Shown here piece by piece: positions 35,135-39,968 of a DNA stretch of 64,000 nucleotides. Both the position numbers and the translations under genes were made by a program. Below the pieces are notes generated by a model. It was not told where the DNA came from. It was given only the letters and a program-made list of their open reading frames with translations, and did not search any database. Origin of the DNA: Peltaster fructicola (Eukaryota; Ascomycota; Dothideomycetes); contig CP051140.1 in the NCBI GenBank assembly GCA_001592805.2, positions 3,473,501 through 3,537,500 on the forward strand, written 5' to 3'. Position 1 is the stretch's first letter, and each line of letters starts with the position of its first letter.

Positions 35135-35829
35135 GATGATCGAAATCCTACCCAGCGCTTGCGGCTCCTCCTGCAGGCCTACAAGACGGTCAGGATCAGT
35201 CGCGTGCGAGCTCGTCAGTGGGGCATCGTGCGGCCAGCCTGAACACTGGCCACAGAATCAAATGTATCTTTTCGTGATGTTGCGGTCCTGTGATTCGCGG
35301 ATCGGCTGCCGTTGATGCAGGAGGAAGACGCTAGTCAGGATTTGTAGACGGCTTTCTCGAGCTGCATATTCCCTTCCGACCTCAAGAAACAAGCAATGCC
35401 GTCTTGTTCTTTGACAATGGAGAAGACATGGAGCAAAAGTTTTTCAAAGACAGTGTTGAGCTGAGCTCCAGAGCTCGGCAATCGGTTGCTGACCCTCCCA
35501 TAGTTGCAGCATCGCCATTCTCTTGGCTCGAACCACCTTAGCCGATACGGCTTTTGAGTTCAAAACCAAGGCCCTTACAATCTTCTAGCCACTCTTCCGG
35601 CCTGATTTCAGTTGGCCTGCATGGACATTCCTCTTCTCGATGCCTGTTTCAGCTTGCGGCAGACAATCGATCTTCACGTGATCAGCAGAGACGACAAGCT
35701 CAGCCGTACGAGAAGTGCGTGAAAGTATGCCGACTGATTTTATCTATAAGATAAGAGATGATGTTCATATACTACAACGGAATAGCGGCACAGCTATAAC
35801 GCAGACGACAAGATCGCCAGTCCTGGGAG

Positions 35830-36470
35830 ACTTGAAGAGTAGCTGATTGCATGTCCGAGATGATGTCTAGTGCTCTTTTCGAGGTATACGCAAGAGCGAA
35901 AGACTGTCTTCACACGGACAGATCGGAGGTGACAATTGCGCCATCCTCGATGCGCATGAAGAGGTAGGCAAGGTGTCCTACACACGTACTGATCGAAAAG
36001 CGACGATTGCGCCATCCTCGATGCGCATGTGACGTGCGTACATTACCTCCTTACCCTGCTTGCAGAGTGAGACATGCAGGCTCAGCTGAGCAGACAGGAG
36101 ATCATGACTACAGCTGTTCTCATGCTACGTGAGGCCGTAGACGCACCGGCCTCACACAGACAAGACAGGGATGATCACTACAGCTGTACTCATGCTATGT
36201 GAGTTGGTAGACACATCAGACTCACACAAACAGGACAGGGATGACTACTACAGCTGTTCCCAAGCAGCCTGAGGAGGCAGGCACACGATGTCACATAGAC
36301 AGAACGGAGATGACCAACCCAGCTGCTCTTATGCTACATGAGGTGGTAGACATATCAGCGTAATGAGGACAGAGATGGACTACTACTGTTGTTCTCAAGC
36401 AATCTGAGGAGACAGCCATATGATGCTCACACAGGCAGATCGGAGTCATGGTACAGCGCAACTCTATCGA
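35830..36470. repeat. Minisatellite, unit about 66-72 bp, eight or nine diverged copies
   Basis: CAGCTGTTCT-like anchors recur at 36111, 36181, 36251, 36320, 36386 and about 36452 (spacings 70, 70, 69, 66, 66), each within ACAGGGATGA..ACTACAGCTGT..TCATGCTA..TGAGG..GTAGACA. Two earlier, more diverged units share an exact 21-bp segment beginning GCGCCATCCTCGATG at about 35938 and 36010 (72 apart). The array is head-to-tail and non-coding. Confidence 0.75.
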
Positions 36471-37713
36471 CAGATGTCTTTCTTAACAGCTGTGGGATGT
36501 TGGAAGGATGTTTTGTCCTGTTCGATCGCAACCACTTGCACCCAGTCTATGCGCCTGCTGCAACATCCTGGGACTCCAATCGAATATGACTTGCTGCATG
36601 CTGCCATTGAAGCATAAACAGCCTCGCTTGAGATCACTCGTGAAGTGCCTGCAGGCTAGCGATCGCGTGAATGCATCACGAGCAATTGCTAAGCACAAGA
36701 CCACAACACAACACGTCTGACAGCACTGGTTGATTGCTACAAGGCTCATTGACTCTTTGGTCGCTTGCCATTCTTACAGCATATCGTGTCGGTCATCAGA
36801 CTCGTGAATCGCACGCACGCTTTTGTGTGTTATACCTGCGTACGATGGTGGCTACGCCTTGTATGCACGGCCGAAGCTCGTCCGACGTCAGCTCTAGCAT
36901 TGCTGAGTTTTGATGGGCACTTCTCGAGTACAACAACCTATTTGCTAAGCCCATCAACTTAGCGACCATTCTCTCTTGAGCTTACATGGCATTACAGGTA
37001 TTTTCTGAAGAGCATATACATGAAGACACAGTCTTGTCGTTCTCACATCTACACCATTGATACACTCTCCAAGCTCGATCCCTGACGCTACGCGACAACA
37101 GCACATAGCCGTACAGGAGATATGAGCTCACCCTCACCGTGCTCGCATCCTATCGATTGTGTCAGTTGGGCTCAGTACTAGGCAGATCAACCAGTGTAGC
37201 TCCCGAAGCGCATATCCCAGTCCAGACGAAAAGTCAAAGCTGGTCCCGGAACACAATGGTCGGTCTCAGAACTACGCATGCGCAAACAAGGAGATGACTC
37301 TGTCGTGTTCAAGGAGTGGACAGCACTACAGCACGGATCGAAGGCTCCTACATGTCTCGCAAAGCCCTTGCTGCCACCTGGTAGCTGATCCAATGCTGGG
37401 ATCTTGTTACCGAGCTTTCAGCCAGAGATTCACGATCAATCAACACTTGTCCAACTACATGGCTCGGGCAGCTACGCCAGCATGGCTACGCACATGCTCT
37501 TCTCGTCAACCGACTGCTCGTATGTCCCGCGTGTCGTCTCGTCACGCAGGGTCCACGATGAGTTGCCGCATGGTAGTGAGTACTTTCCTCCAGCACCGGC
37601 ACAACTTAGGAAGGCACGTTCAGACATCATATACAGTGGCCAGTGCTCCTTCCTCATCGAGCGACCTACCAGAGACCGATCAAGTCAGGAAGGCGCGGAA
37701 AATCCGGGTTTCT

Positions 37714-37724
37714 TAGCTCAGTTG
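37714..37724 (+). promoter_or_regulatory. Internal Pol III A box, crossing the intron boundary
   Basis: TAGCTCAGTTG fits the A-box consensus. Its last G is the first base of the insert, and the following conserved G is a T in the gene, so the insertion slightly weakens the A box. Confidence 0.6.
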
Positions 37725-37773
37725 TGAGTTTCACTCGACTTGGCCTTCTTCAACAGTAACTAACAGTACCAAG
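37724..37773 (+). other. Spliceosomal-type intron within the tRNA D-loop
   Basis: 50 nt, GTGAGT donor, CTAAC branch-like motif ending 10 nt before the acceptor, AG acceptor. Length and signals match the protein-gene introns of this window (41-61 nt, CTAAC). A 5-bp CTTGG/CCAAG pairing could form inside it; I could not draw the bulge-helix-bulge that tRNA endonuclease needs. No T run longer than three. Confidence 0.7.
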
Positions 37774-37808
37774 GGTTAGAGCGTGGTGCTAATAACGCCA
37801 AGGTCGCG

Positions 37809-37819
37809 AGTTCGACCCT
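37809..37819 (+). promoter_or_regulatory. Internal Pol III B box
   Basis: AGTTCGACCCT matches the B-box consensus except its first base. The A-to-B distance of about 85 bases stays in the range that TFIIIC tolerates. Confidence 0.65.
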
Positions 37820-37837
37820 CGTAGAGACCATCAATCC

Positions 37838-37842
37838 TTTTT
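37838..37842 (+). terminator. Pol III terminator (T5)
   Basis: TTTTT lies 8 bases after the tRNA 3' end, the normal signal for Pol III termination, so the transcription unit looks complete. Confidence 0.75.
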
Positions 37843-38884
37843 GCAGTCCCAGAGTCCCTAGAGGGCTCCCAGGGTGTCTAGGTGTTCCTGGACGCTCGTC
37901 CGGACAATTCTGTCTTTTGCAAGCCTCTGCGGCACCACAGGGCATCTCCGGCAAGCCTGGCACCTCAGGAGACTGCTGAAGACGTTCAGGGTACTGCTGG
38001 GAGCATAGCAGCGTTCAGAGATATGCTTGGAGCAGACCTTTGCACAGCAGATGGCAACACAGCAACACACCCTCTGCTCTCAGCATGACGGCTACTGCAA
38101 CCTCTCAGCTAACTCTGCCTCTAAGCGACGAGTGACACACGTGTGCAGCAAACCTTGGAACGCAATATGTCACGAAGATAATGCCACTTCACGGTCAGTC
38201 GCTGTCCGGTACCAGCGCACAGGGATAGATATACGAGTATTCTGCTCCTTGAGCTCAGCAACAAAAGTATCTCAGGCTCCAGAGGCGTGATCACCCATCG
38301 AGCTCCTACGCTGACTCAACAAGACCTTGATCGCCTCGACATGACAGCCAACGCGGCCAACCACGAATACCTAGGGAGGCGAACCTTACCTTTCTGTCGA
38401 CACCAGACGACAACAGGTCTGTAAGTATCGTTGCTGCACGCTGGGAAAGAGAACAACTGTTCAGACGGTGTGGTTGAACACGGACAACCACGAGGAAGAG
38501 GTTGGACCAAACTCGTTTCCTACAGACTACTCCAAGTATAAATCAAGGAAATCGGGTCGACATTTGCTCCTGTCCAGGCACGGAGAGCCTTTCAGCTAGT
38601 GGAATCGATATCGTTGCAGAGACGATACAGTCATTGTAAGTTCTTCCTGGTACGACATCATGAAGAGCGCATAGTCGCTCCGCCTTCGACAGTTCGATGC
38701 CAGGATCCACAAGATTGGCCAGTATGTCCCTTGCCGTCATGGGCCACACAATCGGGGATTCTCGAACCACACTGCAGCTTCGAGCCAGTATGACACAGGC
38801 TGTGCGTAGCTTGAGAAGGCAGAGCTATCGGCCCAGACATCTCGGACTCGCCGTGAGGATATTGTGTGTCTTGAACGCCAGATA

Positions 38885-39410
38885 GTTTTGGGAGCCACAG
38901 CTAGTAGTCCCTGAGATGTCCGTACTGTCAACAGAATAGTGTTATATACGGCACATTAAACAGCGTGAGAAACCGCAGCTCTCTTCATAAGTGTCTTCGA
39001 TGTAGTCAATGCGCGAAATGCAGCGCCGTGCTCTTCAAGAAGCTTGAGCATCACAGCTGCCATCTCAAATATCTCCAAAACTTCCATGTGAGAACCTTTC
39101 GTTCGCCTTGCATACAGCTTGGAAACCCACAGCTATCGTCTCAAGTAGGTCAGAACTGCGCAGGTGAGCGTTGTAAGCACAGGTCTTCTCGCAGGTCAGG
39201 AGCCGTATTGCTTGCCTTAGAAATCTCTGATCTGCCAATGTGTGCATGCTGTGCTCTAGGACCGGGTAGTCTGAGAAATCGCCGTCGTGATTGTGGATAT
39301 TTCCAATTTGCCAATATGACAACGCTGTGCCAAGGAGTGTGTAGCATGGGGACTTGCAATCGCCATCGCTGACATCCTTGGTCTGACCGTGCAAGGAATG
39401 TATGCTCTGC
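38885..39410. repeat. Decayed tandem repeat, ~75-bp unit, about seven copies
   Basis: Heads of the form GAGAAACC.CAGCT....TCTCAA recur near 38891, 38966, 39045, 39120, 39199, 39273 and 39348 (spacing 74-79). Adjacent units 39199 and 39273 also share a TGCCAATRTG segment. Copies are well diverged. Confidence 0.6.
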
Positions 39411-39968
39411 TGTCCATGTCATTCAACAAGCTTGAGTGATTTGAGATCAGCCCTCGTGTCCATCCCCGAGATGGCCATACGAAGATCGTACGTATACCTC
39501 TTTGTGTAGCTTGAGGAAGCCGATGACAGTTGTAGGACCATGTCTGAGTTGCCGGTAGGGATACTCGTACAGCGTACACTCAGTTGCAGGTCAACCTTGC
39601 CATTGACTACTTCGTGTAGACTCCCTCGAGCATCTCCGTCCGAAGTATAAGCGCTCGTAGCACGAAGGATGTGGTTGTCTCCAGATTGTGATCGGTGTAA
39701 GCCCCTTCTGTACAATTGGCACCTTGGAGAACACCTGCTGTTGCTGTCAGGATGTTCGATATGCCGTGAGGGGTATGTCTGGTCTTCTCTTGCTTCCTTG
39801 ACCATTGGGTCGTTCATTCATCCTGTCTCACTATAAACATCGATTGCTGTCTTGACGACGAGTTTCCTTCCTCACTCATGTTCATCCAGCAACACTCTCT
39901 TGCTTGCGGGACCACGAATCATCCTCTTCGCTCATGCCATTGCGTCTGGTATGCTTTCGCTTGAGTAA

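Follow-up and report, generated by a model that had tools for sequence, protein, structure and literature searches.

In Peltaster fructicola, a small fungus of apple surfaces, about eleven nuclear tRNA genes are very likely interrupted by ordinary U2-type spliceosomal introns; each is the sole gene located for its anticodon, and they would be working Pol III genes whose transcripts are spliced by the spliceosome. One of them, a tRNA-Ile(AAU) gene that is probably functional, lies in the window, by which we mean the whole 64,000-nucleotide stretch of contig CP051140.1 (positions 3,473,501 to 3,537,500, forward strand) analysed here. The sequence evidence that these interrupted tRNA genes are a real, and very surprising, feature is strong. 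An initial annotation of the window had put forward the tRNA-Ile(AAU) gene as a single case; that case is real, but it is one of about eleven such genes.

The gene had been described as split in the D-loop by a 50-nt insert (37724-37773), and this is what the sequence contains: GGTTTCTTAGCTCAGTT is followed by the 50-nt insert, by GGTTAGAGC...GACCA and then by five T. The intron-like signals claimed for the insert (GTGAGT, CTAAC and a terminal AG) were recovered as GTGAGT, ACTAAC at 37759-37764 and a CCAAG end. The T5 terminator is present at 37838-37842, and the insert is free of T4 runs, as had been claimed, and of any BHB. The features of the locus are as follows.

37707..37723, + strand: exon 1 of tRNA-Ile(AAU), comprising the acceptor 5' strand, positions 8-9, the D-stem 5' strand and the first D-loop bases (ARAGORN, spliced form)
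37714..37724, + strand: A-box-like sequence TAGCTCAGTTG, whose last G is the first intron base
37724..37773, + strand: spliceosomal-type intron of 50 nt at tRNA position 17/18 (D-loop), GTGAGT..ACTAAC..CCAAG
37759..37764, + strand: branch-point-like ACTAAC, with its A at 37763, 10 nt before the intron end
37774..37830, + strand: exon 2 of tRNA-Ile(AAU), comprising the rest of the D-arm, the anticodon arm (AAT), the variable loop, the T-arm, the acceptor 3' strand and the discriminator A
37809..37819, + strand: B box AGTTCGACCCT, uninterrupted (pattern match G000:C2:3511309)
37838..37842, + strand: T5 run, a Pol III-type terminator 7 nt past the mature 3' end

The two boxes are assigned by their fit to the consensus of the A and B boxes. 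Exon 2 has no canonical 37/38 intron. Removing the insert had been said to give a complete tRNA-Ile, and ARAGORN agrees: no tRNA was called on the unspliced gene, while the spliced form was called as tRNA-Ile(aat) with a score of 116.835. The uncut window as a whole gave no tRNA by ARAGORN (bacterial code) or by Rfam at the gathering score, and in the Rfam search of the genome the locus reached 18.9 bits against a cut-off of 29. In the predicted fold of the unspliced RNA the D and anticodon arms are lost and the acceptor and T arms kept; in that of the spliced RNA the acceptor, D and anticodon arms are present and the T arm is shifted. Nearly 5 kb around the gene (35135-39968) hold no ORF longer than 185 aa, and the longest ORF near it (37159-37716) stops within exon 1; the median intergenic distance given in the genome report is 463 bp (PMC7181583).

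The initial annotation had also called for a count of tRNA-Ile(AAU) copies, and the window gene is the only one found in the genome. BLAST and T-arm patterns run over the whole genome returned no second tRNA-Ile(AAU), and the window locus had no further BLAST-level match. The Ile(AAU) anticodon-arm pattern, with up to two mismatches allowed, matched exactly once in the genome (in the window) and inexactly 23 times; none of the nine inexact matches checked gave an ARAGORN tRNA.

The inventory was extended to the whole genome, which comprises 18,987,130 bases in five contigs with TAGGG telomere repeats at all ten contig ends (L087-L096). The genome report gives 18.99 Mb and five chromosomes, and describes the TAGGG telomere unit as previously unseen in fungi (PMC7181583). 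Identified by ARAGORN and by reading by eye, 44 tRNA genes were located: 11 carry inserts outside 37/38, and the other 33 have at most the usual 37/38 intron. The published tRNA count, obtained with tRNAscan-SE, is also 44 (PMC7181583), although the two gene lists need not agree. Candidates came from an Rfam tRNA search (at least 29 hits, from the best 63 of 380 candidates) and from patterns: the T-arm pattern GTTCRANNC followed by T5 (46 matches genome-wide) or by T4 (169 matches, listed as far as contig 3, among which mainly the tRNA-like ones were taken), four Watson-Crick versions of the 52-62 pair followed by T4 (28, 22, 25 and 16 matches) and two D-arm patterns (17 and 7 matches). All matches not already counted as tRNA genes were examined for the T5, 52-62-pair and D-arm patterns. 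Forward matches clearly exceeded those of backward controls only for GG..CC (28 vs 13) and TG..CA (25 vs 12), with T5 standing at 46 vs 34; because the T- and D-arm patterns were otherwise not clearly above their controls, identification rests on reading the sequences. A further 40 loci matching T-arm patterns, some of them the T4 pattern, gave no ARAGORN tRNA, the tRNA model never doing better there than an E value of 2.2, and a T-arm-like match on the minus strand of L042 was rejected as it does not extend to a full tRNA. The canonical intron or anticodon of eight genes (L005, L008, L009, L021, L047, L050, L064 and L069) was set by eye, mostly against ARAGORN, and the assignment of L021 as Ile(TAT) is tentative.

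No anticodon occurs twice among the 44 genes except CAT (initiator and elongator Met), and the tRNA set looks single-copy. tRNA-His(GTG) and tRNA-Val(AAC) were found in the genome by none of the patterns used, which leaves the inventory incomplete; these patterns could miss genes whose T-arm is unusual or that lack a nearby T4, and the His(GTG) and Val(AAC) genes are possibly hidden by introns as well. The set is very rich in canonical introns, with a 37/38 intron in 34 of the 44 genes by our own reading and in 25 of the 33 otherwise uninterrupted genes by ARAGORN; these introns reach 69 nt (examples are L005-L027, L043, L047, L050, L059 and L063-L069).

Between them, the 11 interrupted genes have 12 inserts of 48-54 nt; these are spread over all five contigs, and each lies at a tRNA position of its own, never 37/38 (tRNA numbering is our own, and boundaries were placed by eye with the splice signals).

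Pro CGG (L074): insert at 4/5, 49 nt
Ile AAT (window): insert at 17/18, 50 nt
Leu AAG (L044): insert at 19/20, 49 nt
Pro AGG (L048): insert at 24/25, 49 nt
Asn GTT (L080): insert at 26/27, 49 nt
Glu CTC (L065): insert at 29/30, 51 nt
Ser CGA (L029, minus strand, G000:C1:1824027-1824214): inserts at 39/40 and 40/41, 48 and 49 nt
Ser GCT (L055): insert at 43/44, 54 nt
Gln TTG (L045): insert at 51/52, 51 nt
Arg TCT (L025): insert at 52/53, 53 nt
Arg TCG (L028): insert at 59/60, 51 nt

Nine of these genes additionally have an ordinary 37/38 intron by our own reading. Asn GTT, the only Asn gene located, was found last, when it was sought as a missing isotype. With the inserts removed the stems are largely intact; minor acceptor flaws are seen in Pro CGG, where a T-T mismatch at 6-67 remains, and in Arg TCG, whose acceptor has four wobble pairs (both by our own reading). 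Ser CGA can be read in two ways: as a single 107-nt block without GT, for which ARAGORN gives 113.3, or as two introns flanking an exon of a single nucleotide, together with a 37/38 intron of 10 nt, a reading that scores 106.6. We regard the latter as the likelier, if uncertain, reading because both parts have full splice signals.

Removal of the inserts restored recognisable tRNAs throughout the set. On the spliced forms ARAGORN agreed with the assigned anticodon for 10 of the 11 genes; it called spliced Pro CGG as Ser(cga), the Pro assignment being our own reading, and with another intron limit it named spliced Leu AAG as taa. On the unspliced forms there was no call in seven genes and a lower-scoring tRNA in four (Pro AGG, Glu, Ser GCT and Asn), where ARAGORN absorbs the insert into a longer intron or arm; Ser GCT and Asn kept the right anticodon even so. 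Given wider context and with longer introns allowed, unspliced Arg TCT and Leu AAG received wrong names. In a structure-only test on ten genes, every block of 38-62 nt was removed and the products scored by ARAGORN with splice signals ignored. The GT-AG cut was best or tied in five of the ten (Ile, Gln TTG, Arg TCT, Arg TCG and Pro CGG), with many ties for Ile and with Pro CGG at the top under the name Ser cga. In the others, the products scoring above the GT-AG cut numbered one for Pro AGG, two for Leu, two for Asn, eight for Glu and 268 for Ser GCT. Structure does not fix the boundaries in Glu CTC and Ser GCT, and for inserts lying in loops ARAGORN is unable to do so.

When each of 285 signal-bearing GT..AG segments (44-60 nt), drawn from 222,639 bases enriched for tRNA loci, was removed in an automated scan, tRNA calls spanning the junction appeared at 11 locus-strands, of which nine are interrupted genes counted above. 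Eight of the 11 had the assigned isotype with scores of at least 109 and one was Pro CGG under its other name; the remaining two were a wrong call at L029 and a call at L065 on the strand opposite the gene. The scan left out Arg TCT, which has no branch motif. Among 1,247 segments from the controls (three Markov shuffles and one reversal), none gave a tRNA, and neither did any of the 18 signal-bearing segments at the 40 loci that match T-arm patterns alone.

The inserts resemble spliceosomal introns in their signals as well as in their length. All 12 have GT..AG ends, although their boundaries were chosen with GT..AG in mind. A G at +5 is present in 12 of 12 inserts versus 24.7% of random GT..AG segments, the random set being 3,814 such segments of 48-54 nt from the window. 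Every insert except that of Arg TCT (11 of 12) has NCTRAY 10-14 nt upstream of the acceptor; at 6-36 nt the motif is found in 10.2% of the random segments, and both signals (G at +5 and NCTRAY at 6-36 nt) coincide in 93 of the 3,814 (2.4%). When protein-gene introns of the window were sought ab initio from codon usage, the 16 candidates were uneven in quality and could not support a weight matrix, and a looser version yielded 24 candidates with signals and 277 without. As this detection was too weak, published values served as the intron reference: a median intron of 50 bp is given in the P. fructicola genome report (PMC7181583), with which the insert lengths of 48-54 nt agree, and for fungal U3 introns GTRWGT, RCTRAC and a branch-acceptor distance mostly of 6-36 nt have been given (PMC5832005). 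The inserts show no sign of forming a family. Among the 11 compared (Asn left out), the best pair scored 10 versus shuffled maxima of 8-11, and BLAST matched the window locus nowhere else in the genome. The idea that the window insert might be introner-like, raised at the outset together with a comparison for introner families, was rejected on these grounds; the comparison covered the 11 tRNA inserts and a BLAST of the window locus.

Pol III-type terminators are kept at most of the interrupted genes. In 9 of these 11 genes, and in 26 of 33 other genes, a run of four or more T follows the mature 3' end at no more than 12 nt (background 1.5%), beginning 2-8 nt past that end in the nine; the first T4 is distant in Glu CTC (28 nt) and Asn (25 nt). 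A TATA at -45 to -25 precedes 4 of 11 interrupted and 6 of 33 uninterrupted genes (10 of 44 in all; background 3.2%), which suggests upstream Pol III promoter elements at tRNA genes. The B box is contiguous in the DNA in 10 of 11 interrupted genes. Pro CGG is awkward for a start site measured from the A box because its insert precedes that box; an upstream TATA may place the start in such genes.

These observations also bear on a second possibility named in the initial annotation, that the precursors are made by Pol II, alone or within longer transcripts, and spliced co-transcriptionally like mRNA. Spliceosomal splicing normally accompanies Pol II, the Arg TCT insert contains TTTT and the Pro CGG insert lies ahead of the A box. 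However, a Pol II precursor would not need T runs a few nucleotides past the mature end, placed as in most uninterrupted genes; B boxes are contiguous in 10 of 11 genes, and the window gene sits in the stretch without long ORFs described above. We consider this origin unlikely.

Less probable still, and in our view very unlikely, is that the interrupted genes are dead or dying copies struck by intron-like insertions, as the initial annotation had allowed for the window gene (a recently killed copy). Eukaryotic tRNA insertions outside 37/38 have mostly been supposed to mark pseudogenes (PMC4090602), and our inventory is incomplete. On the other hand, the Rfam search and the T-arm and D-arm patterns found no second gene for any of the 11 interrupted anticodons; Asn GTT is the only Asn gene located, the stems are largely intact after removal, terminators are kept, and the inserts are tightly clustered in length and signals. 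For the window gene, the lack of a second tRNA-Ile(AAU) and the existence of ten other such genes likewise disfavour decay.

It is also highly improbable that the inserts belong to the non-canonical tRNA introns that the endonuclease cuts at a BHB in red algae, nucleomorphs and archaea. Introns of this type are known in the D, anticodon and T arms of Cyanidioschyzon merolae and nucleomorph tRNAs (PMC4090602, PMC9602550, PMC3978253). Under the standard geometry, central-helix pairing in our inserts was 1.5 of 4 versus 1.56 in shuffled inserts and the full motif was present in none of the 12; a BHB origin would moreover leave GT, G at +5, the branch motif and AG unexplained. Finally, long-read assemblies can contain local errors, but 12 inserts that agree in size (48-54 nt) and bear splice signals, located at 12 tRNA positions on five contigs, are so unlike random error that an assembly or polishing artefact has a negligible chance of being the cause. 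Splicing of Pol III transcripts by the spliceosome, itself one of the options first listed for the window gene, fits best, given ten other genes with the same kind of insert and their retained terminators.

In the literature searched (open-access papers only), no precedent was found for spliceosomal introns in tRNA genes. The U6 RNA of fission yeast is made by Pol III and its intron removed by the spliceosome; in P. fructicola the single U6 snRNA hit (L041, G000:C5:1564325-1564425, minus strand) is uninterrupted, so a U6 intron is not a precedent inside this genome. Bhattacharya et al., as cited in PMC2586383, reportedly described spliceosomal introns in ascomycete rDNA in 2000, which like the Peltaster inserts would be mRNA-type introns in a structured non-coding RNA; rRNA, unlike tRNA, is a Pol I transcript. 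A 2017 study states that, among small structured RNAs, only U3 and U6 are known to contain introns often (PMC5832005). Those fungal U6 snRNA and U3 snoRNA introns share with the inserts an mRNA-type GT-AG structure, an RCTRAY branch site and a small structured host (PMC5832005); unlike them, the hosts here are tRNAs, about 11 genes are affected at 12 positions, and a second, endonuclease-type intron is usually present. Outside 37/38, eukaryotic tRNA introns are treated, in the parts of the literature concerned with them, as pseudogene-like or as red algal and nucleomorph cases (PMC4090602, PMC3978253). The introns of C. merolae and nucleomorphs likewise occupy the D, anticodon and T arms, with up to three per gene (PMC4090602, PMC3978253, PMC9602550). 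They differ from the Peltaster inserts in that those of C. merolae are linked in these accounts to BHB and the tRNA endonuclease, whereas ours have GT-AG ends and branch signals and no standard BHB; those of the Guillardia theta nucleomorph are given as 3-24 nt (PMC4090602), compared with 48-54 nt. About three quarters of the tRNA genes located in this genome have canonical 37/38 SEN introns, and the inserts are set apart from those introns by their other positions, near-fixed length and splice signals.

We propose the following order of events for these transcripts. Pol III would transcribe from the internal boxes, in some genes with the help of an upstream TATA, and would stop at the T run, as the boxes and terminators suggest. 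The spliceosome would then remove the 48-54 nt GT-AG intron in the nucleus, to judge from the signals. The affected arm would fold only after this step, so that end trimming, export and most modification would come later; in Pro CGG, splicing would have to precede formation of the acceptor. In 9 of the 11 genes the tRNA endonuclease would also remove the ordinary 37/38 intron. With about a quarter of its tRNA genes apparently bearing mRNA-type introns, the fungus probably needs both the spliceosome and the usual tRNA-cutting enzymes to make those tRNAs.

tRNA introns are taught as a matter of tRNA endonuclease and ligase, and spliceosomal introns as a matter of Pol II; mRNA-type introns in about 11 tRNA genes would contradict both teachings together. 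Such genes would make it possible to study in nature how uncapped Pol III transcripts are recognised by the spliceosome, which of two splicing systems acts first on a shared RNA, and by what route introns come to lie in non-coding genes. Since ARAGORN missed or misnamed most of the interrupted genes in their unspliced form, 'missing' tRNAs in other fungi may hide in the same way. For P. fructicola itself, it is likely, judging from gene structure, that the spliceosome is a general and essential tRNA-processing machine: about a quarter of the nuclear tRNA genes, including the only located Asn gene, would yield tRNA only once the spliceosome had acted on a Pol III transcript, in most cases together with tRNA endonuclease acting on the same molecule, and translation would be directly spliceosome-dependent.
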